DNA from: Oscillospiraceae bacterium
GTDB taxonomy: Bacteria > Bacillota > Clostridia > Oscillospirales > Oscillospiraceae
Length of the DNA: 43,960 bases
Direction of reading: 5' to 3'
Assembly: GCA_902790375.1 (NCBI GenBank)
Contig: CADARY010000010.1
Span: 1-43,960 of the forward strand
The notes beneath the pieces are model-generated. The model was not told the DNA's origin. It saw only the letters and a list, made by a program, of their open reading frames with translations, and made no database searches. Below, piece after piece: positions 11,833 through 36,431 of this stretch. The position numbers were made by a program, and so were the translations under genes. Numbering within the stretch: position 1 is the first letter of the stretch; each line of letters opens with the position of its first letter.

Positions 11833-11838
11833 TTATTC

Positions 11839-17649: not shown

Positions 17650-17662
17650 AACCGTACTCCTT

Positions 17663-18979: not shown

Positions 18980-20356
18980 TTAATAATCCATGCTTAGCTT
19001 GCTGACATCGAATCTGTCTAACAGCATATCTTCCCCGTCCGTGTTTTTGACGGAAACCGTATCCTGAATAAAACGGATTGTATCCCTGATCGCATCCAGA
19101 TCCGGGCCGATGATGAAGGCCCTGAAAGCCTTCGGGAACTGCGAGCCGTTGTTGACGATCTCCGTCCCGATCCTGTGGAAATAGGTCGAATACAGCACAT
19201 TCGGCAGGCTGTCCACCTTTTCTTTCCCGGACATGGAAGCGATGACGCCATCTTTCGCCAGCAGGGTGAAGGTGCAGCCATAGTGTCCTTTAAATGTCGG
19301 GTCTTCCTTTTCAAGCTCCTCCGGGTGCATATTTCCGGTCAGGGAATGGCTGATGAGCATTCTGAGATGACTGACTCCGTTAAAATGCTCCGTATAGTGG
19401 AAGGCGCTTGTGCCGCCAAGGCGGAAGCCCAGCTCAAAGAAAACGATGCTTCCGTCAGGTTGTGCAAAACCCTGCAGGCTGATCACGCCGTTTTTCAGGC
19501 CCATCTCCTGCAAAAGCCGGCGCACATTGGCGTCGTATTTTTCCAAATATTTCTTCAGCTGATTGGACGGATACAGATATGCGTCCATCAGCGCGTTGAA
19601 GCCCTCCCGTTCGATGCGGGCATATTTGTCAAAGATCGACGAGAACGCCGCCCGGCCATCGGCGAGTGTATAATAGGCGACAACTTCATGTCCATGCAAG
19701 ACTTCCTCTACCACGACTCTCTTTGATTCCGAGTAGCTGAGGGCATATTCAATGCAGGAAGCAATGTCTTCCCTTCGGTTACAGAAGCGGATCCCCCTCG
19801 AGCCGGCATTGTCCGTGGGCTTGACAATCACAGGATAGACGATCTTTTCCAGATCCTCCGCCTTCATTTCCGCCGTGACATAGTAATCCTTTGCGACCGG
19901 GACGCCATACTGTCTGCAGATGCTCTTGAAAAGCAGCTTGTCCCTGGTGATTGCAAGCTGATCTTCATCCGTGATGTAAAACGTGGTTCCCAGCTCTCTG
20001 CTGAGCTTGATGGCGCAATTGGTCCTGAATTCACTGTACCCGGCAATCACGCCATCAACCCGGCTGTTGAGCGCCATCTCCTTCAGTGCCGGGATATCGG
20101 ACCAGCTGATATTCCACGCCTCATCTGCGATTTTTTTCGCCGGCGCGTCGTCCCAGTTTTCGTTGGAATCCGTTGTGATCGTATAGATGCCCATCTCTCT
20201 GGCCGCATCAACGATCTGGCATTCAAGCTCCGTCGCCCCAAGGATGAGAAGCCGCTTGCCCCTCAGATCTTCATATTGTGTCAGACCGCCCCTCCCGTTC
20301 TCGGAGGAGCTTTCAAGGTGTTTGTCTTTTGTCTCTCTGGAAATTGCGTTCGGCAT
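18980..20356 (-). CDS. ATP-grasp protein 1 (carboxylate-amine ligase-like)
   Basis: The product has 458 residues. A PurK/CarB-like pre-ATP domain (RLLILGATELE at 35-45) is followed by the ATP-grasp fold: K179 in VIVKPTDNAGSRG and the Mg-binding E307/R311 in FELGFRLGG. The segment at 350-430 is an extra C-terminal region. ATP-grasp ligases activate a carboxylate as an acyl phosphate and join it to an amine or thiol. GGAGG lies nine bases before the ATG. It is the last of a three-gene run (ATP-grasp 2, PLP enzyme, ATP-grasp 1). The substrate is unknown; an amino-acid or sugar amide is inferred from context. Confidence 0.8.
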   Translation of the reverse strand: MPNAISRETKDKHLESSSENGRGGLTQYEDLRGKRLLILGATELECQIVDAAREMGIYTITTDSNENWDDAPAKKIADEAWNISWSDIPALKEMALNSRVDGVIAGYSEFRTNCAIKLSRELGTTFYITDEDQLAITRDKLLFKSICRQYGVPVAKDYYVTAEMKAEDLEKIVYPVIVKPTDNAGSRGIRFCNRREDIASCIEYALSYSESKRVVVEEVLHGHEVVAYYTLADGRAAFSSIFDKYARIEREGFNALMDAYLYPSNQLKKYLEKYDANVRRLLQEMGLKNGVISLQGFAQPDGSIVFFELGFRLGGTSAFHYTEHFNGVSHLRMLISHSLTGNMHPEELEKEDPTFKGHYGCTFTLLAKDGVIASMSGKEKVDSLPNVLYSTYFHRIGTEIVNNGSQFPKAFRAFIIGPDLDAIRDTIRFIQDTVSVKNTDGEDMLLDRFDVSKLSMDY

Positions 20357-20404
20357 CTATCTCTTCCTCCCGGTTTTTCTTTTCACCGTATTGTGTTTTT
20401 ATGC

Positions 20405-21352
20405 TCAGGCTTCTTTGACAGCCGCTGCCAGAATCCGCATGTCGTCCGCGTCATATCGCTGGTCGATCGGCAGCGGCAGGATATTCGCCGCGAGCTTATA
20501 TTCCGTATCTGCCTCGCCGCACCAGCCAAAAACGTCCGGCCACAGCGTCGGGATATAGATCTTTTCCTGCTGCAGCTTTTTCCGGATCGCCGCGCCGTTT
20601 TCCAGCAGCAGCGGGTACATAAAGCTCCCCGGCTGATCGCTGAGCGCCAGGCCGTTGATGCCGCCGAGCGCCCGGTGAAGCGTCCGGTAGTTTTCCTCCC
20701 GGCGCGCTTTGACGAACGCATAGTCGATCCCGTGCAGCAGATTCGCCGTCAGCCTGGACATGCGCTTGATCGGCTCGGTGTAGAACAGCTCATTGTTCGC
20801 GGCATATTCGCCGTAAAACTCCGCGGCGGTCCGCTCATAGCGTCCCAGCAAAAAGCGCATTCTTTCAAAGGATTCGTCCTGCGGCAGCTCCTCCCCCAAT
20901 ACGCTGTCCGTGTAGAGAAAGGCCCCGTCCGCAACGCCGAAATACTTGCGGCAGGTATAGAGCGTATCCACTCCCGGCAGCGGCGGCTGGAAATAGCTCT
21001 GGGCCTGGTCGACGATCACCCGCCGGTATTTTCCGATCAGCGCCGCAATGCGGCTGTTGTCGAATTGGGAGTAATAATTGACGAAGTAGACCCACTCGTC
21101 CTCCCCCGGCGTGAGCTCCTGTGCCGGGAGAAAATCCCAGCCGACGCTGTAGAAGGCCCAGGCAACGCCCTCGCGCGTACAGACCTCGGTCACGGAATCG
21201 CAGATGAATTTCGGGATCCACAGTTTTTTGATCCGCCGTGCCCGCAGCAGCCAGGCCAGCGCATTGCGCCCGCAGTTGAGGGCGATCGCCCCCTCATGCA
21301 GCATGGGCAGGCGGTAGCTGTCCAGCTCGATATAGCCGCCGATTTCTCTCAT
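20405..21352 (-). CDS. Small PLP-dependent aminotransferase-like protein (DegT-related)
   Basis: The product has 315 residues, about 50-60 shorter than usual DegT enzymes. CGRNALAWLL (27-36) matches the phosphate-binding GxxAL segment, D115 in VIVDQAQS would contact the PLP ring nitrogen, and K136 in TCRKYFGVADGA is the likely Schiff-base Lys. So it is a diverged, shortened fold-type I enzyme. It starts four bases after the ATP-grasp 2 stop and precedes ATP-grasp 1 by 48 bases, which suggests a three-enzyme module. The substrate is unknown; it could aminate or epimerise a small metabolite that the ligases then attach. Confidence 0.65.
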   Translation of the reverse strand: MREIGGYIELDSYRLPMLHEGAIALNCGRNALAWLLRARRIKKLWIPKFICDSVTEVCTREGVAWAFYSVGWDFLPAQELTPGEDEWVYFVNYYSQFDNSRIAALIGKYRRVIVDQAQSYFQPPLPGVDTLYTCRKYFGVADGAFLYTDSVLGEELPQDESFERMRFLLGRYERTAAEFYGEYAANNELFYTEPIKRMSRLTANLLHGIDYAFVKARREENYRTLHRALGGINGLALSDQPGSFMYPLLLENGAAIRKKLQQEKIYIPTLWPDVFGWCGEADTEYKLAANILPLPIDQRYDADDMRILAAAVKEA

Positions 21353-21356
21353 CTTC

Positions 21357-22571
21357 TCATTGCTGCTCGCGCAGCGTCACTTTCACGTATTTGCCCGGCT
21401 CGCGCATGATCTCCTGAAGCCGCGCCTGTGTCTCAAACTTCAGCACCAGCGTCCCGATGGCTTCGTTCGCCGCGCTGAAGCCGCCGATCCTTGTGCCCGG
21501 CTCGATCCAGAGATCCCGCTCAACCACCGCGTCCACGATCGAGGGATCAATGGAAAGGGAGTCGAACACGCCCGGCCTGTCGCTGTGCAGGATCACTTCC
21601 GCCCAGCAGCCGTCATAGGGCCTCTGCTCCACGCCGACCGTCGGCATCCCGAGGGCGGCCCGAACCGCGTTCTCCACCAGCCTGACGCCGGTGGCATACT
21701 CCAGGCACTCCGCCAGGCGGTTGCCGCCGCCCCTGGGCGAGCACTCCATGATATAGGCTTTGCCGTCCGTCCCCTCGCGCGTCTCGATATTGTAAATGGA
21801 CGTGCCCAGATGCAGCAGCTTGATCAGCCGCTGGATCTCCGCGCGCAGCTCCTCCTGGTGCTCCTCGCTCATGGAGGAGGGCCAGCTGTAGGCCGCCGGG
21901 GTATAGGGGTTCTCCGCCCCGCTGTCAAAGCGCTGGCAGTTGAAGGAGACGAACTTCAGCTCTCCGTCAACGGAAAAGCTGTCCGTATCCGAGGAAAAGC
22001 CGTGCTGGGTGATGAAGTCCTCGATGATAAACTCTTTGCCGCGGGAAAAGCCCAGGGCGTATTCGATGGCCTCACCGAGCTTCGCCGGGTCGTCCACCCG
22101 GGTAACGCCCTTGCTGCCCGCCGAATCCGTCGGCTTGACGATCACGGGCCAGTGGAAAGCATCGGCCTCCCGGAGCGCATCCTCAACGGCGGTATAGCCC
22201 TTTGCCGTCGGCACGTTGAAGCCGTGCTCCGTCAGGAAGGCCCGGAAGCGGCCCTTGTTCTGCAGGATCGAAACCGCCTCGAAGGAACCGACAGAGGGAA
22301 GCCCCAGCTGCTCGGCGACATAGGCGGCCGTCACGACGCCGGGGTCGCAGGCGAAGGAGATGATACCGTCGATTTCCCTCTCCCGGGCCGCGCGCAGCGT
22401 GGCCTCCCGATCCGTGATGCTGACGTTGCAGTATTCATCGGAATATTTGTGGGCAATATTGTCCGGCAGATAGTCCGCCGTGATCACATACGCGCCAAGC
22501 TCATGGGCTGCCCTGATCACAGGCAGCGCATAGCGCGACCCGCCGAGTATCATCAGTTTCTTTCTGTTCAT
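21357..22571 (-). CDS. ATP-grasp protein 2 (carboxylate-amine ligase-like)
   Basis: The product has 404 residues from the ATG at 22571, which has GGAG about ten bases upstream. It has the same architecture as ATP-grasp 1: LMILGGSRYA (6-15), K147 in VIVKPTDSAGSKG, and E276/R280 in MECSPRGGG. The two share the VIVKPTD-AGS signature and are probably paralogs. The C-terminal part carries an extra beta-rich region. It lies 35 bases after the GDPD-like gene and is tightly coupled to the PLP enzyme gene. Predicted to form an amide or similar bond using ATP; partners unknown. Confidence 0.8.
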   Translation of the reverse strand: MNRKKLMILGGSRYALPVIRAAHELGAYVITADYLPDNIAHKYSDEYCNVSITDREATLRAAREREIDGIISFACDPGVVTAAYVAEQLGLPSVGSFEAVSILQNKGRFRAFLTEHGFNVPTAKGYTAVEDALREADAFHWPVIVKPTDSAGSKGVTRVDDPAKLGEAIEYALGFSRGKEFIIEDFITQHGFSSDTDSFSVDGELKFVSFNCQRFDSGAENPYTPAAYSWPSSMSEEHQEELRAEIQRLIKLLHLGTSIYNIETREGTDGKAYIMECSPRGGGNRLAECLEYATGVRLVENAVRAALGMPTVGVEQRPYDGCWAEVILHSDRPGVFDSLSIDPSIVDAVVERDLWIEPGTRIGGFSAANEAIGTLVLKFETQARLQEIMREPGKYVKVTLREQQ

Positions 22572-22606
22572 TACGTTTGCTCTCCAAATTTCAGCTTTTT
22601 TCGTTT

Positions 22607-24271
22607 TTACCAGTTGAGGCCCATGGAGCAATGGTGGTCAATGGTAAACTCTGTTACGCCCAAGCCGATCAGCCGCTCCTGCTCCAGGCCGCTGATCCCT
22701 GCTCCTGTTGTGGCGATGGATACGGGGAAACCTTCCCTCTGGGCAAGCAGTATTTTTTCATCTGTCGCCGCCGCATAGAAATATTCCATGACGAGCGGAT
22801 ACTCGCTTTCCGCCGCGCTGACAGCGTCGGCTGCAACGAAGCCGCACCTCTTTGCCATTTCCAGCGGATCCCATGTTGAGTTCTGACCCTGCAGGAGAAT
22901 ATAGCCGCCGATGTCTTTTCCGAAAACGCGCCGCGCCGCATATTGAACGGCAGCGCTTCCGCTCTTGATGCGCAGCCTGTCAAGGACGCCGCAGCGTTCA
23001 GCGGCATCCCGGATCGCGGAAAAATGCGCCTCCCCTTCCTCGTCCCGAAAGCCGGAGTAGGCGTGAATGGAGAGCACCGGCGCCATCTCATAGCGCGCGC
23101 ATATTTCAAAAAACTCCTCTATGGATGCCACCCTGGCCCCGGCATAGATCCTGTTTTTTCTGCTCCCTGCGTCAAACCGCATCAGTTCCTCGAAGCTAAA
23201 GGCAGATACAGGTCTGTCATCGGCGGAGCCCTCCGGGATCACGCTGCCGTCGGCATACCGGAGCTTCCTGCGGATCGTATCGTCGTCATGAAAGCAGACG
23301 CAGACGCCGTCCGCTGTAAACTTGGGGATCGTGACGCAGCTTCGATAGCCCATCCTGCCCGCCATCTCAAAGGCATAGACTGTTGACGCGGGGCACAGGC
23401 CGGAAAAGCCCTGGTGCGCATGATAGAGGATCTGCTCGTCCTCCCGCCGTCTCCCGTCATCCGGACGGCTGCCGATATCGGCGATGTCCAGGGAAACTCT
23501 CTCCGGAATGCTGACGGTGATTTTGTAGCGATCATACTCCCCCTGAACCGGCGGGAGCCGCCACTCTTTTCTCTCAAAGCTGTCCGGCGCGCCGAGCCGG
23601 TACGCGGGCGAATAATAAAGCGCCTTGTCGTCCCGATTGACAAGAAAGCCCTGTATGGTCGGGACCCCTTCCCCGTCGGCACTGTATTTTGCCTCGCAGG
23701 CAAGGATCTGCGGGCAGCCGTTGTCCGTCCCTTCAAGATATACCGAAAGGGTCCGGCCGACGCCGGTGTGATCGCTATAGTTCACAAGGTCAGTCAATGC
23801 CGCCGGTGTCGGTTTGTTGACCTGTCCCCGGAAAACAAAGCCATACAGGCCGGGGTTCTCCGGGTCCATTGCCTCGCCCCGTTTGTTGCTCAGCAGCAGC
23901 CTGATATACGCGCAGCCCGGGGCCGCCGCAGAAATCATATCATGTCCGATCTCCCGCTGTCCTTTGCAGGTGCCGAGAAACGAAAAGAACTTGTCATAGG
24001 CAAAGTACCGGACATAATACGCCTCATCTGTTTTTGCGCTCACAAAGCCGTTGAGCGGGATATAATCGACGCTCCGTATCGGGTTTTGATTGGCGCCGGA
24101 GTTTTGCCCGGTGGTGCTGCTTAGATTCCCGCGCTCAAACGCAGGCGTCAGAGCCTGCTGTCCAGCTTTCCCCGGGTTTTCCATATCTTCGGCGAAAGCG
24201 GCTGTCGGAGCCAGCACAGAAAGCGCCGTCAGAAGGGACAGGAATATGCAGAGAGCTTGTTTTTTCTTCAT
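22607..24271 (-). CDS. Secreted GDPD-fold protein lacking key catalytic residues
   Basis: The product has 554 residues from the ATG at 24271 (GAGGAG six bases upstream; a GTG directly precedes it). The signal peptide ends AFAED. Residues about 65-150 form a domain like that in the plus-strand secreted protein (VDYIPLN, YIRLLLSN). The second half has the glycerophosphodiester phosphodiesterase layout: H286 with QG instead of RG, PAST instead of PENT, then V313/I315 where the metal-binding Glu-x-Asp should be, and a retained H328-D329. With the Glu and Asp both lost, ordinary GDPD catalysis is unlikely. It may bind a glycan or phosphodiester, or use other chemistry. It follows the TagD-like gene. 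Confidence 0.7.
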   Translation of the reverse strand: MKKKQALCIFLSLLTALSVLAPTAAFAEDMENPGKAGQQALTPAFERGNLSSTTGQNSGANQNPIRSVDYIPLNGFVSAKTDEAYYVRYFAYDKFFSFLGTCKGQREIGHDMISAAAPGCAYIRLLLSNKRGEAMDPENPGLYGFVFRGQVNKPTPAALTDLVNYSDHTGVGRTLSVYLEGTDNGCPQILACEAKYSADGEGVPTIQGFLVNRDDKALYYSPAYRLGAPDSFERKEWRLPPVQGEYDRYKITVSIPERVSLDIADIGSRPDDGRRREDEQILYHAHQGFSGLCPASTVYAFEMAGRMGYRSCVTIPKFTADGVCVCFHDDDTIRRKLRYADGSVIPEGSADDRPVSAFSFEELMRFDAGSRKNRIYAGARVASIEEFFEICARYEMAPVLSIHAYSGFRDEEGEAHFSAIRDAAERCGVLDRLRIKSGSAAVQYAARRVFGKDIGGYILLQGQNSTWDPLEMAKRCGFVAADAVSAAESEYPLVMEYFYAAATDEKILLAQREGFPVSIATTGAGISGLEQERLIGLGVTEFTIDHHCSMGLNW

Positions 24272-24337
24272 CACGATCTCCTCGGATGGGATGAAATCCT
24301 TCTGCGCGCATGCCGGTGCTTCTTCAAGCGCAGCAAA

Positions 24338-24769
24338 TTACTTTTCTTCCAGAATCTTTTGCAGAACGTCCTTTAACATGGTCGAAGAAATCCCGGCCGT
24401 GTGCGGCAGAAAAACCATGTCAACGCCAACCGCCTTCAGCTTCCTTTCGATCTCATTGTACATATCGGAGCCGCGCCAGTCGTCGCCGTGGAAAATCGCA
24501 TTGAAACGGTATTTCTCCCACGCGGCGAACTTGTCCATGGAGACCTGCGGTACGACCTCGTCTACGTAGCGTATGCTCTCGACGATCGCAAGCCTCTCTT
24601 CAAAGGGGATGACCGGGGTTTTGTGCTTATACGATTTCACCAGTTCGTCGGTGCTGACGCCGACGATCAGATGCTCGCACCGCTCCTTCGCATTCTTGAG
24701 GATGTTCAGGTGTCCGACATGGAACATATCGAACACGCCGGTCGTATATCCGATTTTATATTTTTCCAT
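24338..24769 (-). CDS. TagD-like cytidylyltransferase (glycerol-3-phosphate type)
   Basis: The product has 143 residues, close to TagD/GCT length. The nucleotidyltransferase signatures are all present: GVFDMFHVGH with HxGH at 17-20, GDDW at 95-98 and ISST at 127-130. TagD makes CDP-glycerol from glycerol-3-phosphate and CTP; other members use other phosphates, so the substrate is not certain. AAGGAA precedes the ATG at 24769. No CDP-glycerol glycerophosphotransferase is visible in the window. The preceding 71-base gap has a small GC hairpin without a T-run. Confidence 0.85.
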   Translation of the reverse strand: MEKYKIGYTTGVFDMFHVGHLNILKNAKERCEHLIVGVSTDELVKSYKHKTPVIPFEERLAIVESIRYVDEVVPQVSMDKFAAWEKYRFNAIFHGDDWRGSDMYNEIERKLKAVGVDMVFLPHTAGISSTMLKDVLQKILEEK

Positions 24770-24840
24770 ACTGTTTCCTTCTTTTGGCATGTGATGCCGG
24801 AGACCCCCGGCGGCGCTTTGCCGGGACAGACGTGCAGGAA

Positions 24841-26307
24841 TCATCCCTTCCTGCCGCGGAGCTTCGGGATCACATTTCTTTTCGTATATGACAGCGCGAA
24901 ATGATAGCTCTCGTTTTTGGTGATCACGGACAGCCCGAGATACACCGCCGCGCCTGCCACGATCTGGAGGACGAGGGTGAGCAGATCCGGCAGGCCCAGC
25001 AGCCCTATCGGATAAACGCAGACCCCCATCAGCACCGCCGGGGCCAGATTGACAAGGATATCCTTGAACTGCTCCAGGTGGCCGTATTGCAGGATTTCAT
25101 AATTCGGGACAATATTGATCATCATGGAGATGAAATAAACGAGTACGAGACTCCACGCGATCCAGATGACGCCCATCCTCGCGCTGGCGATCAGGATAAG
25201 AAGCCCGATCCCCTTTTTCAGGATATCCAGCTTCAGGAGCAGTCCGCTCCGTCCGCTTGCCTTGATCACGCAGTTATTGATAAACTGCGGGCAGCGAAAC
25301 AGGTTTGCCGCGCACCCGATCTGCAGATAAACCACGCACGGCAGCCATTTCTCAGTCAGCAGCACCTTGACAAGCGGTTCGGCCGTTACGATCAGCCCGA
25401 TCAGGATCGGGGATATGAGATAAGTGCTGACCTGAAGGACCCGGCGCGTGATATGCCGCATCTGGGCCTGATTGTCATTGCAGTTGGCCAGCGTCGGGAA
25501 GAGCACGGAATTGACCGTCGGCTCGATCAGCCGCATGCCGAAGGAGGGGAACGAATACCCGCGATTATAATAAGCCAGATCCTGACTGGAGTACATCTTT
25601 CCGATCAGCAGGCTTCTCAGGCGCGAATATACCGTGTCGATCAGGCCGACAGCCAGGATCTTCCAGCCGTAGCTGTAGATCGCCTTCAGCCGCTCAAAGG
25701 AAAACTCCCGTGTAGGTCTCCATCCGACGATGAACCAGAGGCAGACCGTATCAATAAGGGAATTGCCAAGATACTGCTCTACCAGCGCCCAGACACCGTA
25801 GCCCATATAGGCCATCACAACGGCAATGACGCCGGAAACCACCGTGCCGATCAGCGTTGCGTAAAAGAACTTCTTGAAGCGCAGATGCTTTGACACATAC
25901 GCATGCTGAACCGAATTGACGGCAGCCAGCGGAATGCGAAGTCCCATGACCCGTATGACCGGCGTCAGAAGCGGGTTATTGTAAAACTTCGCCACGACCG
26001 GCGCCGAGGTAAAAACGATCAGATACAGCAGGGCGGAGAGCGCGATGCAGAAATAAAAGCAGGTGGAAAAATCCAGACTGTCCGAGTTTTTATTTGCAAC
26101 CAGCGCGTTGCCGAAGCCGTATGTCACAAATACATCGCAGATTGTGATCAGCACCGTCACCAGAGCGACCAGGCCATATTCCTCCGGCATCAGCAGTCTC
26201 GCTAAAATCAGCTGGAGCACAAAGCTGATCCCTCTGGCCAGCACTCTCTCGGCAAAGCGATATGCAAATCCCGACGCCGCTTTTTTCTTCAGGGTCTGAT
26301 CGTTCAT
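24841..26307 (-). CDS. Wzx-type polysaccharide flippase (PST/MOP family)
   Basis: The product has 488 residues with about 12-14 hydrophobic segments. The N-terminus KKKAASGFAYRFAERVLARG, then LARLLMPEEYGLVAL, is typical of WzxC/TuaB-like lipid-linked oligosaccharide exporters. It would flip the undecaprenyl-diphosphate-linked repeat unit across the membrane for the polymerase. AGGAG lies six bases before the ATG. A 135-base gap without visible features separates it from the sulfotransferase gene upstream. Confidence 0.9.
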   Translation of the reverse strand: MNDQTLKKKAASGFAYRFAERVLARGISFVLQLILARLLMPEEYGLVALVTVLITICDVFVTYGFGNALVANKNSDSLDFSTCFYFCIALSALLYLIVFTSAPVVAKFYNNPLLTPVIRVMGLRIPLAAVNSVQHAYVSKHLRFKKFFYATLIGTVVSGVIAVVMAYMGYGVWALVEQYLGNSLIDTVCLWFIVGWRPTREFSFERLKAIYSYGWKILAVGLIDTVYSRLRSLLIGKMYSSQDLAYYNRGYSFPSFGMRLIEPTVNSVLFPTLANCNDNQAQMRHITRRVLQVSTYLISPILIGLIVTAEPLVKVLLTEKWLPCVVYLQIGCAANLFRCPQFINNCVIKASGRSGLLLKLDILKKGIGLLILIASARMGVIWIAWSLVLVYFISMMINIVPNYEILQYGHLEQFKDILVNLAPAVLMGVCVYPIGLLGLPDLLTLVLQIVAGAAVYLGLSVITKNESYHFALSYTKRNVIPKLRGRKG

Positions 26308-26442
26308 GAGGATCTCCTCTTATCTGCCTGCGTTCTTTTTGCTCCGGCAATGAGACAAACCGTCAAACCGGTGCAGCAAGGCTGTAACATGCTGTTCATG
26401 TGCGGGCAGGCTCCCGGTTTAATACCGCTTCTGCTCTCCGCG

Positions 26443-27507
26443 TCACTTTCTCGGTTTTCCGGGATTCAGCGGGGATTTCCCGAAAAACATTTTTCCATTC
26501 GGATCCGGCGCCGGATATCTGGAGTAATCGAACAGATACTCCGGCAGCTCCCTCTCGATCTTTTTTACATCCTCGGCAAATTCCGGGAAGCGGAGAAACA
26601 CCTGGGTGTTCGCAACGGACAGGGCCGGATCAAAGACGGACTTCGGTCTGGGGTTTTCCGGCAGCTTCAGAAACGCCCGCAGCTTTGCGGTCGTTTCCTC
26701 ATACTCATAGACCATGTCTTCAAACTTCAGGATCATCACCCTGTCATCCGGCTGAAGATACGGCTGATCCTTCCGCAGCGCGCGGTAATAGGCGATGAAG
26801 TCCTCCACGGGCTCGACCGCCATAAAATGATTCCTGCCCAGAAGCTTTGTCCTTGCGAAGACATAGTTGTCGCGGGGATCCCGGTCGACGACCACCGCAT
26901 AGGGGTCCCGGAAGAACGGAAAGCAGGCCTGTGGATTATTGCCGGAAAACGGCTGATCAAGCGCGATGATCCCGTTGGTATCCATCCCCATCCTGCCCAG
27001 CATCGTATCAACCAGCTTCTGCGCTTCCGTATAAAAGTTTTCCGGATGCACGGAGACTCTGACCTCTCTCAGCGGCCAGCAGCTCAGCTGGTGTCCCGCC
27101 TTCCTCTCCAGCTTCGGAATGACCTTGCGGCGCATGATATAGTCGGCAAAACGAGAAGGCAGGTTTTCCGCCTTGTTCTCGTTGGTGTACCCGACCCATT
27201 TCACCGTGGTAATGGCGTCGATAAACGCCTCGACCATCTTTTCAAAATCGTCCCGGGGAAGTCCGTGGATCTCATACGTCAGCAAAAGCCTTTTGACAAG
27301 CTTTTCAAATCTGCGGATGGCGACGCCGGAATCACTCGTTCGAAAATGCGGGTTCATGACCGCGCGCTCGAGATCGATCAGACCGTCAACCTTCGGCACC
27401 CAGGTAAACTCAAAGTCGTCCTTGACCGTCACGTTGTCGAATTCTCTCAGATAATCCGTGATCACGCTCGAGCCGGTTGAACCGAAGCCGCACGCCCCAA
27501 TTATCAT
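26443..27507 (-). CDS. Sulfotransferase-family protein
   Basis: The product has 354 residues from the ATG at 27507; a TTG six bases earlier is an alternative. The N-terminal GFGSTGSS loop (7-14) matches the 5'-phosphosulfate-binding loop, and VVVDRDPRDNYV, with DRDPRD at 208-213, matches the 3'-phosphate motif of PAPS-dependent sulfotransferases. It would transfer sulfate from PAPS to a hydroxyl or amine, here presumably on the glycan or its lipid-linked precursor. PAPS-making genes are not in the window. It overlaps or abuts the glycosyltransferase stop, so the two are coupled. Such enzymes are uncommon in Firmicute glycan operons. Confidence 0.7.
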   Translation of the reverse strand: MIIGACGFGSTGSSVITDYLREFDNVTVKDDFEFTWVPKVDGLIDLERAVMNPHFRTSDSGVAIRRFEKLVKRLLLTYEIHGLPRDDFEKMVEAFIDAITTVKWVGYTNENKAENLPSRFADYIMRRKVIPKLERKAGHQLSCWPLREVRVSVHPENFYTEAQKLVDTMLGRMGMDTNGIIALDQPFSGNNPQACFPFFRDPYAVVVDRDPRDNYVFARTKLLGRNHFMAVEPVEDFIAYYRALRKDQPYLQPDDRVMILKFEDMVYEYEETTAKLRAFLKLPENPRPKSVFDPALSVANTQVFLRFPEFAEDVKKIERELPEYLFDYSRYPAPDPNGKMFFGKSPLNPGKPRK

Positions 27508-27509
27508 TC

Positions 27510-28769
27510 TCAACGCCCCTCTCTTCTCACGATCTTGTATGCGCTGACAAATCTGTTCAAGCCTGCCGCGCCGATCGTATGTCCGACAAGCCAGTGCACC
27601 GTGTGTCCTTTGATATGTGTTGTCCTGATTTTCATCAGTCGCGCTTCGTCATAATATTCCTTCTGCGCTGCCGTCTCCGCTATGGAAAGCTGCCGGGCAA
27701 ACTCGATGTTCATTCTCTGCGTATAATCCTCGTACCCGTTGTAGACATAGTTGATCTCATCCGCATGCGCAAGGGCGCTTTCGATGCACGCCTCAAGCGA
27801 TGTATCCGGCAGCGGATCATACATGGTCTTTGCGCCCGACTCCCCCAGGCCCAGCACGCCGCAGGGCTCGCCGGTCGAAGGATGCACAATCACCGTAGGG
27901 CGATGAAAGCGATAGCTGACGGTGGCAGAGCCGGCCGTTGAGACAAACACATCAATATTCCGCAGCAGGGACGCCGGAATGGGGTAGAGATACCCCGTGA
28001 TGATCGTGTGAATCGTGTCGCACGCTTTCATTTCCTGAAGGATTTGCCGCAGCCTTTTCCTGCCGGTTGCGCCGCCGATCAGGACAAGGTTGTATTTCTC
28101 CCCCGGATGCGCTGCGGCGTATGCCCGGAAGCCCTTCAGAATCGCCGGTACGCAGCCTTTATCGAGCCTGCCGATGCTCCCGAACGTCAAGGCAGCCCCC
28201 TTTGGGATCTGGTCAGAAATCAAATCTTCACATTCTTCAACCGAATTCTGGCAGCACGCCGCAATTTTCGCGTCAGCCCGCGGCTCCATATGCTCGTCCG
28301 CAAAGATCTGGTTCATGGAGTGTACGGTAATGCCGGCAAGCTCATGCCGATCATATTTGAATCTTAAAAAAGCCCTTATATCCTCATCGTAAGGGTGGCG
28401 TTCCTGCAGAAGGAAAACCACGTGCTTTGCGCCAAGACGCTTTGCGATCAATTCGCCCCACACGGCTCTGTTGACCGCATCCGACTCGATTATGCAGCGC
28501 TCGTCCCCCGGCTCGCCGATGGCCGCCGCGACATCATCCACGGTCTTTTTTACTTCCCGCCGGGGATAGCATTCCGGCGCGTAGGTCAGGGCAGGAAAAA
28601 CAAGATTGGAATAATGCTCATTGCTGTCAAAGGGCGTCGTCTCTTCTTTTCCGCTGAGAAAGATGACCCGCCAGCCGAGGGAGAGCATATATCGCATCTT
28701 GTTGTAGTGATATATTTTTTCACCGCTGACTTTGCCGAGATGGCGCGCTACCAGGATATACGTTTTCAC
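27510..28769 (-). CDS. Glycosyltransferase, GT-B fold (GT4-like)
   Basis: The product has 419 residues and starts with GTG (GAGGTG eight bases upstream), overlapping the polymerase stop by four bases. TFGSIGRLDKG, the VLIGGATG region and a C-terminal nucleotide-sugar-binding-like stretch (SVSYRFHRPTVI, GEPCGVLGLGE) suggest a GT-B glycosyltransferase. It is the only clear glycosyltransferase in the locus besides the initiating enzyme. Donor and acceptor are unknown; dTDP-Qui4N derivatives or UDP sugars are possible. Confidence 0.7.
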   Translation of the reverse strand: MKTYILVARHLGKVSGEKIYHYNKMRYMLSLGWRVIFLSGKEETTPFDSNEHYSNLVFPALTYAPECYPRREVKKTVDDVAAAIGEPGDERCIIESDAVNRAVWGELIAKRLGAKHVVFLLQERHPYDEDIRAFLRFKYDRHELAGITVHSMNQIFADEHMEPRADAKIAACCQNSVEECEDLISDQIPKGAALTFGSIGRLDKGCVPAILKGFRAYAAAHPGEKYNLVLIGGATGRKRLRQILQEMKACDTIHTIITGYLYPIPASLLRNIDVFVSTAGSATVSYRFHRPTVIVHPSTGEPCGVLGLGESGAKTMYDPLPDTSLEACIESALAHADEINYVYNGYEDYTQRMNIEFARQLSIAETAAQKEYYDEARLMKIRTTHIKGHTVHWLVGHTIGAAGLNRFVSAYKIVRREGR

Positions 28770-30028
28770 AAGCTCTGCACCTCAATTTGATCGTCCTCAT
28801 TCATCTCATACACCAGCCTGAACAGGAGCGGCAGAATAATAAACATTGTGGCTCCGATCGAGGGCGCATAGAGCGTACCTACGAACCCGCGTATGATAAA
28901 AAACAGGAAAATCACCAGCATCTGCTTGAAAAGTACGCTTTCCCTCGGCAGCGAAACATATTTCATGATCGTGTACAGCGTCGAAACAGTAATCCCGTTG
29001 CTCAGCAGGCCGCCAAAGACGCCGTATCTTGCGAACTCATCGAAAAACTGTCCATGCCCGCCGACCAGCAAATAATCCGCTTTATCCCCCACTCCGATCA
29101 GGAAATTAGGGACTGACGCAAAAAAGGTTTGTATACTCAATCCCATCAGCTGTAAACGAACCGTCAGCGAGTTGCTCTCCTCCATTGCCGCACTGCTTTG
29201 GTCAAACAGCCTGATAATCGAAAATATGCGGTCTGCAAGTCTCTCTGAGCCGAGAAGGTTGGCAATCCCGGTCAGGATCACCCGGTATCCCAGCAGGCCA
29301 AAGACCAGCACAGAGCTCAGCGCCAGGAATCGGAGGATTCGCCCGACCCCGCGCTTGGAATTCACCATGATGAGGAACGGAATCATGACAAAGGACAGCA
29401 GGATCGTGATGGCGCGCTGCGTCACAACGGCATTGAATAAAAAGCAGACCAGTGCGATTCCCAGATACAGATAGCGCAGAAGCTTTCTTCTCTCCCGGAG
29501 AAACGCGGAAAACGTAATGCCGGACAGGAGCATGAGCGCGCTGACGTATTGTGTATTGACAACCTCCGTATAGCCCTCCAGGAACATGTGCATGGGGACA
29601 AAGCCAAAGCGCCTCCACAGCAAATAGTTCTGCCACATTGTAACAAAAGCTGTCACAATGCTGACGGCCAGAATAAATATACATTGCTTCCTGTCCAGCT
29701 TGTGGTATATCGGCAAAATGCTGATATAGGGGATAAAGAAAAGGATCGTCGTCGTGATACCGGTTCCCTCATCCGACAGACCGATATATCTGTACAGGAA
29801 ACAGATCGCAAGGTAGCCCACAATCAGGAGCAGCGTGATGCTTTCCTGCAGCTTTATGTGAAGAAGATCATATCCTTCCAGGAAGCAATACAGCATCCAC
29901 AGGGCCAGGATCGCTGTCAAGCCGATCGTCCTCTGAACCTTAAGGGAAAGGCAGCAAATGCAAATACACGCCAGCAAAAAGGTCGGTAAGTCTGACCATT
30001 TGATTGTCCATCTATTTCTACTGATCAT
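28766..30028 (-). CDS. Wzy-type O-antigen/capsule polymerase
   Basis: The product has 420 residues with about 11-12 membrane spans and a large extracytoplasmic loop at roughly 270-340 containing GVGDKADYLLVGGHGQFFDEFARYG, which resembles the Wzy/O-antigen-ligase loop. It would polymerise flipped repeat units outside the membrane. GGAG lies seven bases before the ATG. This stretch is more AT-rich than the catabolic operon. The 208-base gap upstream (30029-30236) has no gene but contains a GC hairpin at 30079-30103. Confidence 0.8.
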   Translation of the reverse strand: MISRNRWTIKWSDLPTFLLACICICCLSLKVQRTIGLTAILALWMLYCFLEGYDLLHIKLQESITLLLIVGYLAICFLYRYIGLSDEGTGITTTILFFIPYISILPIYHKLDRKQCIFILAVSIVTAFVTMWQNYLLWRRFGFVPMHMFLEGYTEVVNTQYVSALMLLSGITFSAFLRERRKLLRYLYLGIALVCFLFNAVVTQRAITILLSFVMIPFLIMVNSKRGVGRILRFLALSSVLVFGLLGYRVILTGIANLLGSERLADRIFSIIRLFDQSSAAMEESNSLTVRLQLMGLSIQTFFASVPNFLIGVGDKADYLLVGGHGQFFDEFARYGVFGGLLSNGITVSTLYTIMKYVSLPRESVLFKQMLVIFLFFIIRGFVGTLYAPSIGATMFIILPLLFRLVYEMNEDDQIEVQSL

Positions 30029-30078
30029 AGAATAACTCCGTTTTGGCGGTATTCAACGCCTTACTCAAAGTCTTTTGC

Positions 30079-30103
30079 CCGGGCGCCGTCTCGCCGCGCC
30101 CGG
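30079..30103. repeat. GC inverted repeat in the 208-bp gap before wzy
   Basis: CCGGGCGC (30079-30086) and GCGCCCGG (30096-30103) form an eight-base stem with a nine-base loop. No T-run follows on either strand, so it is at best a weak terminator or pause site between the ATP-grasp 3 gene and the polymerase gene. Confidence 0.4.
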
Positions 30104-30236
30104 ATATGGAGTCTGTTGTCATTCAAATTCTTCCCGCAGGAGATCGCCTTGCCCGCGATTTGTTTTTCCGGGCTTTCCGCTTCGCAGCGCGCACGCGCCT
30201 GCTGATTTATGCCGCAAGTGCGCGAATGTCCTGTGC

Positions 30237-31394
30237 TCAGTGCTCCTTCTTTTTTATTTTTGCCCGATAGCTGAGGAGCTGCTGGAGCAGATGGGTGTAA
30301 AACGGTTTTTTGTCGTCCCTGCTGTAAAGGATCTCCTGTGTATTTTTCCAGCTGAACCAGGAAGGCTTTGCGCGGAAGCGGTCCGAAGATTTCAGGAACC
30401 AGGCGATATCCGTGTCGAGATGCCGGATGTACATGCCAAACCTGTTGTTCTCCGGATACTGGATCACATCCTGATCATAGATCATCTCCAGCATCTGTCT
30501 GGAGACATTGCAGCCGCACATAAAGGCCACCTTGACGCTGGCCGGGATGCGCCCGTTGATCTCCAGCAGCCTCGGCTCGCCGGTCTCCTTGTCGACCATG
30601 AACGCCACGTTGGCAAAGCCCTTCCACTTCAGCGCCTTCAGCAGCTTGCCGGCATACTGGAGCACCTCATGGGCGTCAACCGTAACGATCAGCACGCCGG
30701 CGCCCGCATCGACCGGGAACCAGCGCAGGACATTCACCGCGTAAGAGGTGCAGATGTTGCCCTTTTGGTCCATGAAGAGATTTGTCCCGATTCGATTTTC
30801 GAAATTGACAAACTCCTGGATGACATAGTCGTCCGGGTCCAAGCCCTTTTCCTTCATGTAGGGCCAGAATTCCTCCCGCTTTTCAAACTTGTGAAAGCCG
30901 ATGGAGCCAAGCCCCTGGCGGGGTTTTATGATAATGGGGAATTTGCACCTGGAAAGAAAGTCATGGATGTCCTGCCTGCTGTGGCGCGTATAGGGGCAGG
31001 GGATGCCGTTTTCCATGGCGGTATCGAAGGTAATCTGTTTATTGAAAGCTTTGATATAGGTCTCCCGGGGTGCGCAGGCAATCTTCACATACTTTTTGAA
31101 TTCATCCTCATGCTGTGTGACAGGATTTGTGCTGAGCTCACCGATCGGCATCAGCACATCATATTCCCCCGTTGAAACAAGCCGGAGCAGCGTTTTGATA
31201 TAATGGTCATCAATGACCGCCATGTCCGGCATCAACAGCTTCCGGTCCGGGAGTCTGGAAACATAGCACACATCCAGCTTGGATTTGCACAGCACCGTAA
31301 CGCGGCAGCCGATCTCTTTCAGACCCCGCACCATTGCGAGCGTCTGCTTCCCGCCGCCGTCCAGCACCAGTACCCTCAGGTTCTTAAACTCCAT
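30237..31394 (-). CDS. ATP-grasp protein 3
   Basis: The product has 385 residues. The N-terminal domain begins LRVLVLDGGGKQ. The ATP-grasp domain has K157 in IIIKPRQGLGS and E278/N280/R282 in LLEINGRIPAS, the Mg-ATP ligands. A basic C-terminal tail of about 70 residues follows. It differs from ATP-grasp 1 and 2 (no VIVKPTD) and is closer in style to ATP-grasp 4 (both have GCN after the metal motif). Its start overlaps the phosphoglycosyltransferase gene by 11 bases. Predicted carboxylate ligase; substrate unknown. Confidence 0.8.
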   Translation of the reverse strand: MEFKNLRVLVLDGGGKQTLAMVRGLKEIGCRVTVLCKSKLDVCYVSRLPDRKLLMPDMAVIDDHYIKTLLRLVSTGEYDVLMPIGELSTNPVTQHEDEFKKYVKIACAPRETYIKAFNKQITFDTAMENGIPCPYTRHSRQDIHDFLSRCKFPIIIKPRQGLGSIGFHKFEKREEFWPYMKEKGLDPDDYVIQEFVNFENRIGTNLFMDQKGNICTSYAVNVLRWFPVDAGAGVLIVTVDAHEVLQYAGKLLKALKWKGFANVAFMVDKETGEPRLLEINGRIPASVKVAFMCGCNVSRQMLEMIYDQDVIQYPENNRFGMYIRHLDTDIAWFLKSSDRFRAKPSWFSWKNTQEILYSRDDKKPFYTHLLQQLLSYRAKIKKKEH

Positions 31395-32049
31395 CTTGCT
31401 TAGCCCTGCCCTTTATTTCCAAATATTCCGGCATATCCTTGAATTTCTTTTTGCCGCACAGCACCTGCAGTATGGTCACGATCGTCCGCCAAACCAGGTT
31501 GCAGTCATAGGCAAAGCTCTGCCGCTCGACATACATTTTCTCCATCTCCAGCTTAATGGGAAGCACCTCGCGCCGGTACGCCTCATTGTCCTTATAGGTA
31601 TCCCCGACGGTATAGTCATAGAGGCTTGCCGCGCTGGTGAGGCCGGGCTTTACATTCAGGATCATCGCGTATTTGCCGCAGTACAGCTCATCCACATGCT
31701 CTACCGTCATCGGTCTCGGGCCGACAATGCTCATGTCTCCCTTGACGACGTTGAAAAGCTGCGGAAGCTCATCAATTTTCAGGCGGCGGATCAGCCTGCC
31801 GAACGGGAACACCCGCTTGGGATCGGTGATGAACATGTCCTTCTTTTTCCCTTTGGGCGGATGCATCGACCTGAATTTGTAAAACTTGAACGGCTTTTTG
31901 TGGATGCCTGCCCGCATGGAGTGGTAAAGGATCGTCCCGGGGCTGGAGAGCTCTATGCCGAGAGCGGTAAGAAGATATACGGGGGAAAGAGCAACAACGG
32001 CAAACAGGCAAAGGATAATATCAAGGAATCTCTTTACAGGCTTGTACAT
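31384..32049 (-). CDS. Initiating sugar-phosphate transferase (PglC/WcaJ family)
   Basis: The product has 221 residues, the size of a monotopic PglC-type enzyme. A hydrophobic N-terminus (FLDIILCLFAVVALSPVYLL) is followed by KFYKFRSMHPP and DELPQLFNVVKGDMSIVGPRP, the bacterial sugar transferase signature. It moves a sugar-1-phosphate from a UDP sugar to undecaprenyl phosphate at the cytoplasmic face, starting the repeat. GGGGGAG lies seven bases before the ATG. With PglF- and PglE-like enzymes in the same operon, the likely first sugar is a UDP-diamino-trideoxyhexose (bacillosamine type, inferred). Confidence 0.92.
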   Translation of the reverse strand: MYKPVKRFLDIILCLFAVVALSPVYLLTALGIELSSPGTILYHSMRAGIHKKPFKFYKFRSMHPPKGKKKDMFITDPKRVFPFGRLIRRLKIDELPQLFNVVKGDMSIVGPRPMTVEHVDELYCGKYAMILNVKPGLTSAASLYDYTVGDTYKDNEAYRREVLPIKLEMEKMYVERQSFAYDCNLVWRTIVTILQVLCGKKKFKDMPEYLEIKGRAKQDGV

Positions 32050-32065
32050 AGGTGCGCTCCCCCTG

Positions 32066-32713
32066 TCACAAAATATCCCGGATCAGCATGAACGCTTCCG
32101 CCGCTTCGGCGCCGATCGTGGAACCCCTGTATTCCGCCAGGGCTTTGATCGCTTTCAAAGACCGCGGATGGGGAAACTCGTGCAGCTGCGACCGGTAACG
32201 CTCCATGGCCTTTATTTTGCTGTCCAGCTCGCCGCTTATATCCACCCAGACATTGGGAATGAACGCATTGTTTGCCGACGGGGTATTCCATTCGGTTTCT
32301 GACAGAGTCTCGTATGCCAGCACCTTTTTTACAAACGGAGCCGCCAGCGGCCGTACTGCGACCATGGCCCCCTCTGCCACCCAGCGATGGTCCAGGTGCA
32401 TATCCCCATAATGCGGAATCAGCACGATCTCCGGTTTCACATCGGCAACGACCCTGCAGAAAGCGCTGTTCATCTGCGGCTTCGACATGCTGTCGAGCTC
32501 ACACGCAGGAAGATTGAGGAAAAGCGAATGCGATACGCCGAGCATTTCATGCGCTGCCTTCGCCTCTTTTTGAAGCTTCTCAGAAGAGGGGCCGGACGTC
32601 ACTTCACACACGCTGATGCTGTACCCCGCTTTCGCGAGCTTTGACAGCGTCCCTCCGGCGCCGAGAACTTCATCATCATTATGAGGTGCAAATACCAAAA
32701 CTGTCCTTTGCAT
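32066..32713 (-). CDS. PIG-L/LmbE family zinc deacetylase
   Basis: The product has 215 residues. Zinc-site motifs PHNDDE (10-15) and HLDH (106-109) are intact. The family removes acetyl groups from N-acetylglucosamine derivatives and similar compounds. In this locus it could expose an amine on a sugar for re-acylation or amide formation by the GNAT or ATP-grasp enzymes (inference). It ends 16 bases before the phosphoglycosyltransferase gene. Confidence 0.85.
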   Translation of the reverse strand: MQRTVLVFAPHNDDEVLGAGGTLSKLAKAGYSISVCEVTSGPSSEKLQKEAKAAHEMLGVSHSLFLNLPACELDSMSKPQMNSAFCRVVADVKPEIVLIPHYGDMHLDHRWVAEGAMVAVRPLAAPFVKKVLAYETLSETEWNTPSANNAFIPNVWVDISGELDSKIKAMERYRSQLHEFPHPRSLKAIKALAEYRGSTIGAEAAEAFMLIRDIL

Positions 32714-32726
32714 CAGGAGAGACCCC

Positions 32727-33689
32727 CTATTTGATAATTTTAACCTCGTTATACTTCATCATATAGATGCCTTCGTCGTAGGCGCCGATCTTCCTCTGAT
32801 TCACCACACCGTTAAGGTTATTCAGGATGAGCTCCATATGATTGCAGCCACACTCAAAGGCGTGCGGATAACCGCCGCCGAACCGGGGATTAACCTCGGA
32901 TATATAATACTGCCCGTCAACTTCAAAGATGTCAATGTCGATCTGGCCTCTGTAACCGGCCTCCAGGACAAAGCTCTCAATCAAGGCAAACAGCGCGGGG
33001 TCTTTAAAGCTGACGGCCTTGTCCGTCTCTCCGGCGCGCATCAGGATCTTCTTTTTTGTGAAGATGGAGACGACCTCTCCGGACAGCAGATCAATATAGA
33101 CATCCGCGCCGATCTCCTGTCCATTCAGATATTCCTGAATCATCAGGTCATCATAATGTGAGAAAAGGAGCTCGATCGTTTCCTCGTCATATACCTTGGA
33201 AATGTTGATGGATGCGGAGCCTCTGTACGGTTTAACAAAAACGGGGTAGCCAATCTCCCCCTCTTTGACCGCCCTGCAGAAGGCCTCCTTATCCATCCAG
33301 GATCTGGCGCAGCGATACCCGTGCGCTGTCAGCCAGTGATACATCTGCATTTTGTCCAACGCCATTTCGCAAAGCTCATAAGAGCTTCCGATCACGGTGG
33401 TTCCCACTGCCCTGAACTTTTCTTCATTCCTGGCAAGCAGACTCAGCTCCGGATCAATCAGGCTCAAAACGCCGTTGATCTGTTCTTTTTTGCAGATGTC
33501 GAGGATCACGTCAATATAGCCGGGCGCGGTGATATGCGGCACGATATAGTGCTTGTCCGCCTCATAGATGGCGGGGCCGAGCGCGCTTGCGTCCGTAGCG
33601 ACAACGCATCCTGCGCCGTCAAACACTCTCCTGAAATACTGCACCACTTTATTCCGCGTGCCGGCAGCAAGTATCAATATATTTGTCAT
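32727..33689 (-). CDS. ATP-grasp protein 4 (CarB/PylC-like)
   Basis: The product has 320 residues, the shortest of the four. ILILAAGTRNKVV opens the N-terminal domain; K153 in VFVKPYRGSAS and E265/N267/R269 in ISEVNPRFGGGYP mark the ATP-grasp site. It is similar in layout to PylC and to the carbamoyl-phosphate-synthase-like ligases of sugar and antibiotic clusters. Its ATG overlaps the GNAT stop by four bases, so acyltransferase and ligase are translationally coupled. Substrate unknown. Confidence 0.8.
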   Translation of the reverse strand: MTNILILAAGTRNKVVQYFRRVFDGAGCVVATDASALGPAIYEADKHYIVPHITAPGYIDVILDICKKEQINGVLSLIDPELSLLARNEEKFRAVGTTVIGSSYELCEMALDKMQMYHWLTAHGYRCARSWMDKEAFCRAVKEGEIGYPVFVKPYRGSASINISKVYDEETIELLFSHYDDLMIQEYLNGQEIGADVYIDLLSGEVVSIFTKKKILMRAGETDKAVSFKDPALFALIESFVLEAGYRGQIDIDIFEVDGQYYISEVNPRFGGGYPHAFECGCNHMELILNNLNGVVNQRKIGAYDEGIYMMKYNEVKIIK

Positions 33690-35232: not shown

Positions 35233-35236
35233 GTTC

Positions 35237-36394: not shown

Positions 36395-36431
36395 GCTCGA
36401 GCTCCTTTCTGTTTCGCAGCGTGTCAAGCCG

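Follow-up and report, generated by a model that had tools for sequence, protein, structure and literature searches.

The DNA analysed here (the window) is a stretch of 43,960 nucleotides (nt) from contig CADARY010000010.1 of an Oscillospiraceae bacterium, and all coordinates refer to it. Its minus strand carries what looks like a surface-glycan locus of the Wzx/Wzy type, in which a preliminary description had picked out four ATP-grasp proteins (AG1 to AG4). Beyond the coordinates of that description lies the most unusual part of the locus, a cassette of genes at 4730-13570 that includes an unnamed protein, which we call U300. Along the minus strand, the order of the glycan genes is PglF-PglFn-DegT1-AspAT-2HADH-GNAT-AG4-PIG-L-PglC-AG3-Wzy-glycosyltransferase-SulfT-Wzx-TagD-GDPD-AG2-PLPx-AG1-DegT2-RmlA-RmlB (Table 1). 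Intergenic gaps are mostly -11 to +84 nt, with a 65-nt overlap of RmlA and DegT2 as called and wider gaps between AG3 and Wzy (208 nt), SulfT and Wzx (135 nt), and AG1 and DegT2 (204 nt). For the window, 37 predicted proteins of the minus strand and three of the plus strand were scanned with Pfam, which bears out the DegT1, class I/II aminotransferase, 2-hydroxyacid dehydrogenase, GNAT, PIG-L, and Wzx assignments made earlier.

Table 1. Genes of the glycan locus and the adjoining cassette, with profile scores in bits and, for cassette genes and DctM, occurrence among 80 U300 loci.
Gene	Position (strand)	Predicted product	Part of locus	Profile match	U300 loci
PglF	38900-40912 (-)	nucleotide-sugar 4,6-dehydratase	arm A	PF02719 378
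PglFn	37775-38815 (-)	PglF-like, without dehydratase domain		PF13727 24, below cut-off 25
DegT1	36432-37748 (-)	LegC-like sugar aminotransferase	arm A	PF01041 227; TIGR04181 271, below cut-off 420
AspAT	35237-36439 (-)	class I/II aminotransferase (aspartate aminotransferase-like)		PF00155 220
2HADH	34237-35247 (-)	D-2-hydroxyacid dehydrogenase		PF02826 161
GNAT	33686-34222 (-)	acetyltransferase, weakly PseH-like		PF13302 75.6; PseH model 43, below cut-off 93
AG4	32727-33689 (-)	ATP-grasp ligase	arm A	PF02655 46.3 (cut-off 23.2); NF009406 523 (cut-off 271)
PIG-L	32066-32713 (-)	PIG-L type deacetylase	arm A	PF02585 78
PglC	31384-32049 (-)	PglC-type phosphoglycosyltransferase; 11-nt overlap with AG3	arm A	PF02397 169
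AG3	30237-31394 (-)	ATP-grasp ligase	arm A	PF02655 38.9 (cut-off 23.2)
Wzy	28766-30028 (-)	probable Wzy polymerase, hydrophobic (inferred from sequence)		no family match
Glycosyltransferase	27510-28769 (-)	probable glycosyltransferase (inferred)		no family match
SulfT	26443-27513 (-)	sulfotransferase-like protein		PF13469 22, below cut-off 27
Wzx	24841-26307 (-)	Wzx-type flippase		PF13440 324
TagD	24338-24844 (-)	glycerol-3-phosphate-cytidylyltransferase-like		PF01467 74; TIGR01518 91, below cut-off 165
GDPD	22607-24274 (-)	glycerophosphodiesterase (GDPD)-domain protein, signal-like N terminus (read by eye)		PF03009 29.5
AG2	21357-22571 (-)	ATP-grasp ligase	arm B	PF13535 42.4 (cut-off 27)
PLPx	20405-21352 (-)	divergent aminotransferase-like protein
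AG1	18980-20356 (-)	ATP-grasp ligase	arm B	PF13535 45.6 (cut-off 27)
DegT2	17663-18775 (-)	DesI-like sugar aminotransferase	arm B	PF01041 327; DesI model 277, below cut-off 650
RmlA	16777-17727 (-)	glucose-1-phosphate thymidylyltransferase	arm B	TIGR01207 467 (cut-off 361)
RmlB	15761-16780 (-)	dTDP-glucose 4,6-dehydratase	arm B	TIGR01181 499 (cut-off 365)
DctM	12143-13570 (-)	DctM-type transporter	beside cassette	PF06808 165	21/80
PrpD	10410-11744 (-)	MmgE/PrpD-family enzyme	cassette	PF03972 and PF19305	68/80
AKR	9419-10399 (-)	aldo/keto reductase	cassette	PF00248 192	60/80
Ppd	8266-9417 (-)	Ppd-like thiamine pyrophosphate (TPP) decarboxylase	cassette	TIGR03297 398 (cut-off 312.5)	61/80
U300	7358-8260 (-)	unnamed, distantly U32-related	cassette
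HpcH	6163-7308 (-)	HpcH/CitE-like C-C bond lyase	cassette	PF15617 379	72/80
FumC	5571-6080 (-)	class I fumarase-type hydratase, C part	cassette	PF05683 76	69/80
FumN	4730-5581 (-)	class I fumarase-type hydratase, N part	cassette	PF05681 169	70/80

The four ATP-grasp open reading frames (ORFs) were found where they had been placed, all on the minus strand and all above the Pfam cut-offs; three are exactly as listed, and AG2 is the ATG-started form of a listed ORF at 21357-22631. PF13535 is the type of AG1 and AG2; of the general ATP-grasp models, PF02655 gives AG3 and AG4 their best scores. For every one of them the matches in the PDB are ATP-grasp enzymes: AG3 has a single match, 2pn1 (E = 3e-4), to which AG4 aligns over nearly its full length (E = 2.7e-90). 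AG4 thus belongs with the "carbamoyl phosphate synthase-like protein" entries NF009406 and 2pn1, which give no function. Lys and Glu/Asn/Arg ligands had been claimed for all four proteins. In an alignment with 16 relatives, gathered regardless of the cassette, the 2 ATP lysines, the final glutamate, and the arginine are retained throughout. The asparagine of E-x-N-x-R, the motif of ATP-grasp carboxylate-amine ligases, is present in AG3 (EINGR) and AG4 (EVNPR) and is replaced by glycine in AG1 (ELGFR) and by serine in AG2 (ECSPR); alignments with AG1 and AG2 place a threonine at this position in PDB 4dim. Pairwise identity among AG1-AG4 in the same alignment is only 11-23%, so they are not recent tandem duplicates. 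PF13535 has 5 matches in the 3.1-Mb genome, 2 of them within the locus, and PF02655 has 7, at least 3 within the locus, a concentration that exceeds chance. An attempt to gauge the rarity of four ATP-grasps from PF02655 gave no useful count; the model also catches proteins of at least 1,000 residues in many genomes.

The locus had been described as an assembly line. Rather than a single four-step line, its gene content points to two amino-sugar arms, one using uridine diphosphate (UDP; arm A, with PglF, DegT1, PIG-L, PglC, AG4, and AG3) and the other deoxythymidine diphosphate (dTDP; arm B, with RmlA, RmlB, DegT2, AG2, and AG1). Between AG2 and AG1 lies PLPx, previously called a pyridoxal phosphate (PLP) enzyme. 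It has no family match in Pfam and NCBIfam scans; its profile does match PDB entries annotated as putative aminotransferases (5u21, E = 0.0013; 5u1z, E = 0.004), and two residues, Asp115 and Lys136, do not vary in any of 8 sequences compared, so that the use of PLP is likely.

We compared the locus with samples of 150 genomes from the family and 291 from the class (G-numbers denote genomes, with G000 that of the window and G531 being G131 again; L-numbers denote the loci or stretches compared). Gene labels in these loci are best BLAST matches to window proteins, and many of the loci are metagenome-assembly fragments on short contigs. At the E cut-offs used, and with the window's genome included, relatives of AG1, AG2, AG3, AG4, and PLPx occur in 6, 5, 3, 4, and 6 of the 150 family genomes, the ATP-grasp relatives being scattered sporadically across the family. 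In the neighbourhood search proposed in the preliminary description, 9 of the 16 aligned ATP-grasp relatives lie within 2.5 kb of a DegT, PglC, RmlA, or RmlB relative on the same strand (L028, L032, the second copy in L033, L036, L038, L040, L043, L044, and L046), and 7 do not. The runs include AG2-DegT2-RmlA-RmlB (L038), Wzx-AG2-PLPx-GNAT-DegT2-x-RmlA-RmlB (L032), DegT1-PglC-AG4 (L028 and L043), AG4-DegT2-RmlA-RmlB (L046), DegT1-PglC-AG1 (L040), and PIG-L-PglC-AG3 (L033). AG3 relatives that are 52-89% identical come after PIG-L and PglC in G514, G520, and G131; around the same framework, G131 has two ATP-grasps and G520 three.

The near relative G514 carries the locus between the same flanking genes (VanY, 97-98% identical; NTP_transf_5, 87%; radical SAM, 94%). 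Much of it is highly conserved: PglF (94%), PglFn (93%), DegT1 (99%), AG3 (89%), AG2 (95%), PLPx (86-94%, in two pieces), DegT2 (92%), RmlA (94%), RmlB (96%), and the cassette with DctM (82-99%). PIG-L and PglC (47-48%) and Wzx (43%) have lower identities. Missing from G514 are AspAT-2HADH-GNAT-AG4, and the slot between DegT1 and PIG-L is filled by genes for a hexapeptide transferase, an AMP-binding ligase, a GNAT, and a PglD-like transferase. G514 also lacks AG1, and its slot after PLPx holds a hexapeptide transferase, a 153-residue ORF, two HpcH/HpaI aldolases, and a carboxyltransferase. An amino sugar can equally be N-acylated by hexapeptide transferases or PglD-like enzymes, and their appearance in place of AG4 and AG1 means that these two ligases most likely do the same job. 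With an ATP-grasp profile, only AG2 and AG3 are found in 60 kb of G514, so four ligases are not required for such a locus. With ligases exchanged for acyltransferases in this way, the acyl group would be expected to switch much as serotypes do.

The cassette comprises PrpD, AKR, Ppd, U300, HpcH, FumC, and FumN, with DctM beside it. U300 passes the cut-off of no named family; it scores 13.3 bits against Peptidase U32 (PF01136; cut-off 22.4), and an alignment with a U32 protein (hhalign 96.6% over 134 columns) indicates a distant relation. Comparison with solved structures by sequence or profile gave no match better than E = 0.37. Iron-sulfur U32 proteins such as UbiU and UbiV have conserved cysteines; among 13 U300 sequences no cysteine is invariant. 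A GTDB scan yielded 238 relatives of U300, and we collected the loci of the best 80, all at least 87% identical, with flanks of at most 10 kb. Most come from rumen or gut Clostridia and a few from other phyla; Lachnospiraceae bacterium FE2018 (L127) and Sporofaciens musculi (L131) are among the carriers.

The ATP-grasp profile, built before the U300 scan, overlooks some kinds of ATP-grasp, such as the ATPgrasp_ST protein of L161. It finds 48 ORFs in 37 of the 80 U300 loci, every one on the U300 strand, and 24 of the 38 loci of at least 20 kb contain one. As a control, we took 20 stretches, 13 of them 20 kb long and 7 shorter, from genomes with U300; they contain a single match, i.e., 1 in 0.30 Mb versus 48 in 1.33 Mb. 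In 27 loci, a cassette gene (2HADH included as one) has such an ORF no more than 120 nt away, which applies to 28 of the 48 ORFs; some overlap the cassette gene. L050 has a single run RmlA-RmlB-kinase-DegT2-PglC-2HADH-PrpD-U300-ATPgrasp-ATPgrasp-HpcH-FumC, followed by a transposase, which ties the downstream cassette genes of the window to the ligases; in L094, L119, and L126, too, the cassette is interleaved with ATP-grasp or sugar genes. The run Wzx-AG2-PLPx-AG1-cassette-DegT2 occurs in L071, L109 (where HpcH is unlabelled), and L142, with RmlA-RmlB next in the first two. We also considered, and rejected, a strict partnership of AG3 and the cassette: 5 of 12 U300 genomes have an AG3 relative (including G531, i.e., G131), but these genomes were selected for U300, and of five AG3 relatives found regardless of U300, the one in G131 alone is known to share its contig with the cassette.

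In samples drawn regardless of ATP-grasps, U300 occurs in 6 of the 150 family genomes, the window's included. The three with U300 84-100% identical (G000, G095, and G131) each carry ATP-grasps on the U300 contig; in G012, G062, and G025 (37-72%) no ATP-grasp was found in the stretch examined, which in G012 and G025 ends at the contig end. Nine of the 291 class genomes match U300, G000 among them. In G650 (85%), an ATPgrasp_ST gene and an AG2-like gene directly follow U300; U300 of G657 (77%) lies on a 3-kb contig, and G825, G570, and G679 (56-72%) and G807 (37%) show no ATP-grasp. Two of the class matches are partial, one being a U32 protein by Pfam. In G062 (L205), the order is U300-FumC-FumN-PrpD, with PglC-like and fucose-pyrophosphorylase genes on the opposite strand. 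The U300 relative in L166 is accompanied by a DctM gene and a ketopantoate-hydroxymethyltransferase-like neighbour. Small as the numbers are, ordering the neighbourhoods by U300 identity suggests that the close group is linked to glycans and that the distant ones are mostly catabolic-looking.

What the cassette may make is hinted at by its variable part. Of the 80 U300 loci, 60 have only Ppd/AKR, 13 only 2HADH, 1 (L083) both, and 6 neither. This near-exclusive distribution suggests one 2-keto acid with two fates, decarboxylation plus reduction or direct reduction. Our guess for the substrate of the Ppd-like enzyme is a 3-substituted pyruvate other than phosphonopyruvate, oxaloacetate- or sulfopyruvate-like. 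The window holds both Ppd/AKR, in the cassette, and 2HADH with AspAT, in arm A beside AG4; arm A may therefore use a second acid, e.g., glycerate or malate. As to the order of ligation, proteins that a tree assigns to the AG2 and AG1 clades are gene neighbours, in some cases with PLPx between them, in L071, L092, L094, L109, L126, L142, and L143, and in reverse order in L031. Directly before PrpD stand members of the AG1 clade (L092, L109, L142, and others), the AG3 clade (L076, L083, L091, and L124), and a fifth ATP-grasp clade (L082, L085, L087, L116, and L130), and AG2 and AG4 relatives are also found without the cassette. These placements weakly favour AG2 and AG4 attaching an inner unit, perhaps an amino acid, and AG1 and AG3 an outer one. 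The split is further weakened by L082, L087, L116, and L130, in which a single ligase stands beside the cassette: direct acylation must be possible if the reading is right.

From the gene content, the conserved neighbourhood, and the N-acylation genes that take the place of AG4 and AG1, we infer each reaction, the order of the units, and the nature of the acid. With moderate confidence, we propose that the locus builds a surface glycan of the Wzx/Wzy type in which two amino sugars are N-acylated, by means of four ATP-grasp ligases and a cassette that supplies an acid. In arm A, PglF and DegT1 would make a UDP-4-amino-6-deoxy sugar, to which AG4 and AG3 would join carboxylic acids by amide bonds, using ATP and an acyl-phosphate intermediate; PIG-L would remove an acetyl group, and the PglC-type enzyme would load the sugar on undecaprenyl phosphate. 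In arm B, RmlA, RmlB, and DegT2 would yield a dTDP-4-amino-4,6-dideoxy sugar that is acylated by AG2 and AG1. PrpD, AKR, the Ppd-like decarboxylase, U300, fumarase, and the HpcH lyase would make at least one acid, from a precursor that DctM brings in. Judged by context, the best-supported reading is that amino sugars carry acyl or aminoacyl groups in amide linkage, as first suggested in the preliminary description, given the 9 of 16 neighbourhoods and the replacements in G514.

That description recognised no described system. The ligase idea does have published precedents; the cassette was not found described. In Neisseria, PglB2, an ATP-grasp/phosphoglycosyltransferase, is responsible for GATDH (glyceramido-acetamido-trideoxyhexose) (PMC11130364). 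Similarly, the PglC-type and AG3 genes overlap in our locus, and PglF and DegT1 lie upstream in the same run. Unlike PglB2, the two are separate genes and not a fusion, and there are four ligases, a second, dTDP arm, an acid cassette, and a Wzx-type glycan target; this likeness was drawn from domain content and gene context. In the type B flagellin of Clostridioides difficile, taurine, alanine, and glycine are amide-linked to Fuc3N (PMC5207245), and a mutant in CDR20291_0245, a PF13535 ATP-grasp in the cluster CDR20291_0244-0247, has no flagellin cap (PMC5207246). Our AG1 and AG2 are likewise of the PF13535 type and stand beside the dTDP-amino-sugar genes DegT2, RmlA, and RmlB. The C. difficile ATP-grasp has FemAB-like and FdtB-like neighbours (PMC5207246, PMC5207245), and a FemAB-like gene also lies near the ATP-grasps in the relative G131 (L033), where a FemAB/Acetyltransf_6 protein is encoded at 9589-10617 between the PLPx and PIG-L relatives. 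The window differs in having two arms, and RmlA and RmlB together with a DesI-like aminotransferase instead of FdtB, and neither flagellin nor FemAB was seen among its proteins in the Pfam scans. An ATP-grasp within a clostridial carbohydrate cluster also appears in a gene-neighbourhood study (PMC4000134). We found no account of the cassette or of a locus with four ATP-grasps in the titles and abstract beginnings searched, a coverage that leaves out most subscription journals.

Several observations weigh against our proposal. No ATP-grasp was found in the DNA examined for 43 of the 80 U300 loci, many of them on short contigs; in G514 the ATP-grasps are 18-23 kb away. As noted, a single one of the five AG3 relatives, the closest (G131, 52%), lies on a contig with the cassette, and for the remaining four (29-38%) the stretch examined shows no cassette gene; likewise, among the AG1 relatives from the family search (L031, L033, L034, L040, and L041), only the contig of L033 is known to carry it. 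The gap of 398 nt between DctM and PrpD means that the cassette may be its own transcription unit. For the ligases, AG1 and AG2 lack the asparagine ligand, and 7 of the 16 relatives have no sugar gene within 2.5 kb on their own strand (both copies in L031, the first in L033, L034, L035, L041, and L042, the last two on short contigs). The division into inner and outer units is challenged by AG1 and AG3 relatives that lie by sugar genes without the cassette (L040, L056, and L058) and by L126, where an AG2 relative directly follows U300. The gap and the loci without ATP-grasps would suit an independent catabolic operon that merely adjoins the glycan locus, with DctM importing a dicarboxylate and PrpD, fumarase, and HpcH degrading it. 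This was our own first reading of 4730-13570, dropped after L050 and the U300 scan and retained as a rival. It also draws on distant U300 relatives (55-72%) in catabolic-looking clusters, with citrate lyase genes in L163 and L206 and malic enzyme plus tricarboxylate or TRAP-type transporter genes in L164 and L165; perhaps the glycan cassette arose from a catabolic route, as yet undescribed, that these represent. Still, an unrelated operon would hardly have ATP-grasps no more than 120 nt from its genes in 27 of 80 loci, with all 48 on the U300 strand, or be interleaved with ATP-grasp and sugar genes in 4 loci, and we consider it unlikely.

The ligases might also work in the opposite direction, amidating the carboxyl groups of uronic acids with amines instead of acylating sugar amines. 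For a capsule ATP-grasp domain, this reaction has been reported biochemically: the TupA-like Cj1438C of Campylobacter jejuni amidates capsule glucuronate with serinol or ethanolamine phosphate (PMC11800379). Both cases would give amide bonds on a surface glycan, with opposite polarity in Cj1438C. We regard uronic-acid amidation as improbable here: against two amine-making arms, no UDP-sugar 6-dehydrogenase was found in the Pfam scans of the window proteins, the remaining genome not having been searched for one, and amino-sugar genes flank 9 of 16 ATP-grasp relatives, with acyltransferases replacing AG4 and AG1 in G514. A phosphonate, made by the Ppd-like enzyme from phosphonopyruvate and attached to the glycan, would fit the match above cut-off to the phosphonopyruvate decarboxylase model TIGR03297 and the G520 contig, where a phosphoenolpyruvate (PEP) mutase fused with a TagD-like stretch lies just past the cassette (L198, 16942-18987). 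However, of 37 U300 genomes (completeness being given for few), no more than 4 have a PEP mutase match (TIGR02320) above cut-off, none is found in G000, which is 89% complete, and the G520 contig has a second Ppd-like gene (L080), 44% like that of the window. The phosphonate reading of the Ppd-like enzyme is thus disfavoured for most genomes, and we think it quite unlikely. That the ATP-grasps serve unrelated small-molecule pathways in a composite locus is very improbable. ATP-grasp enzymes do have many reactions, the sole NCBIfam model passed is the carbamoyl phosphate synthase-like one of AG4, and 7 of 16 relatives have no sugar gene nearby, but adjacency to sugar and lipid-linking genes recurs across genomes, and such pathways would not account for the replacements of AG4 and AG1 in G514.

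Other features complete the picture of the locus. PglFn, directly after PglF, is conserved in G514 (93%) and G520 (43%) and is perhaps a partner or regulator. The TagD and GDPD genes (22607-24844) suggest an additional glycerophosphate substituent. Between RmlB and DctM, LRR_5 and Ig-like domain proteins are encoded (13643-15757), with 42-47% identical relatives in G514 between RmlA and RmlB, and a perfect GC-rich palindrome at 13597-13618, with a T run on the plus strand only, separates the LRR gene from DctM. On the plus strand, a 763-residue ORF at 2437-4728 has no Pfam match; G514 has a 733-residue ORF in the matching place and orientation. Elsewhere in the window's genome (L055, G000:C18:66000-85900), a further ATP-grasp lies by a DegT aminotransferase and a GNAT at 9425-13243, possibly another acyl-amino-sugar locus.

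The precedents found are single cases with one ligase each, and the arrangement here appears to be one of mix and match, with two arms, up to four ligases, and likely a dedicated acid pathway. Going further, we tentatively suggest, with rather less confidence than for the glycan itself, that a mobile cassette (PrpD, AKR, and TPP decarboxylase, or 2HADH instead of the last two, plus U300, HpcH, and fumarase) makes an undescribed carboxylic acid via a new U300 reaction, and that ATP-grasps put this acid on surface amino sugars in Clostridia of the gut and rumen as well as in a few other phyla; in the present case two sugars would each bear a two-unit acyl chain. If true, these bacteria would be coated with acyl-amino sugars in which the acid is undescribed and stems from a protein family that has no function assigned to it.

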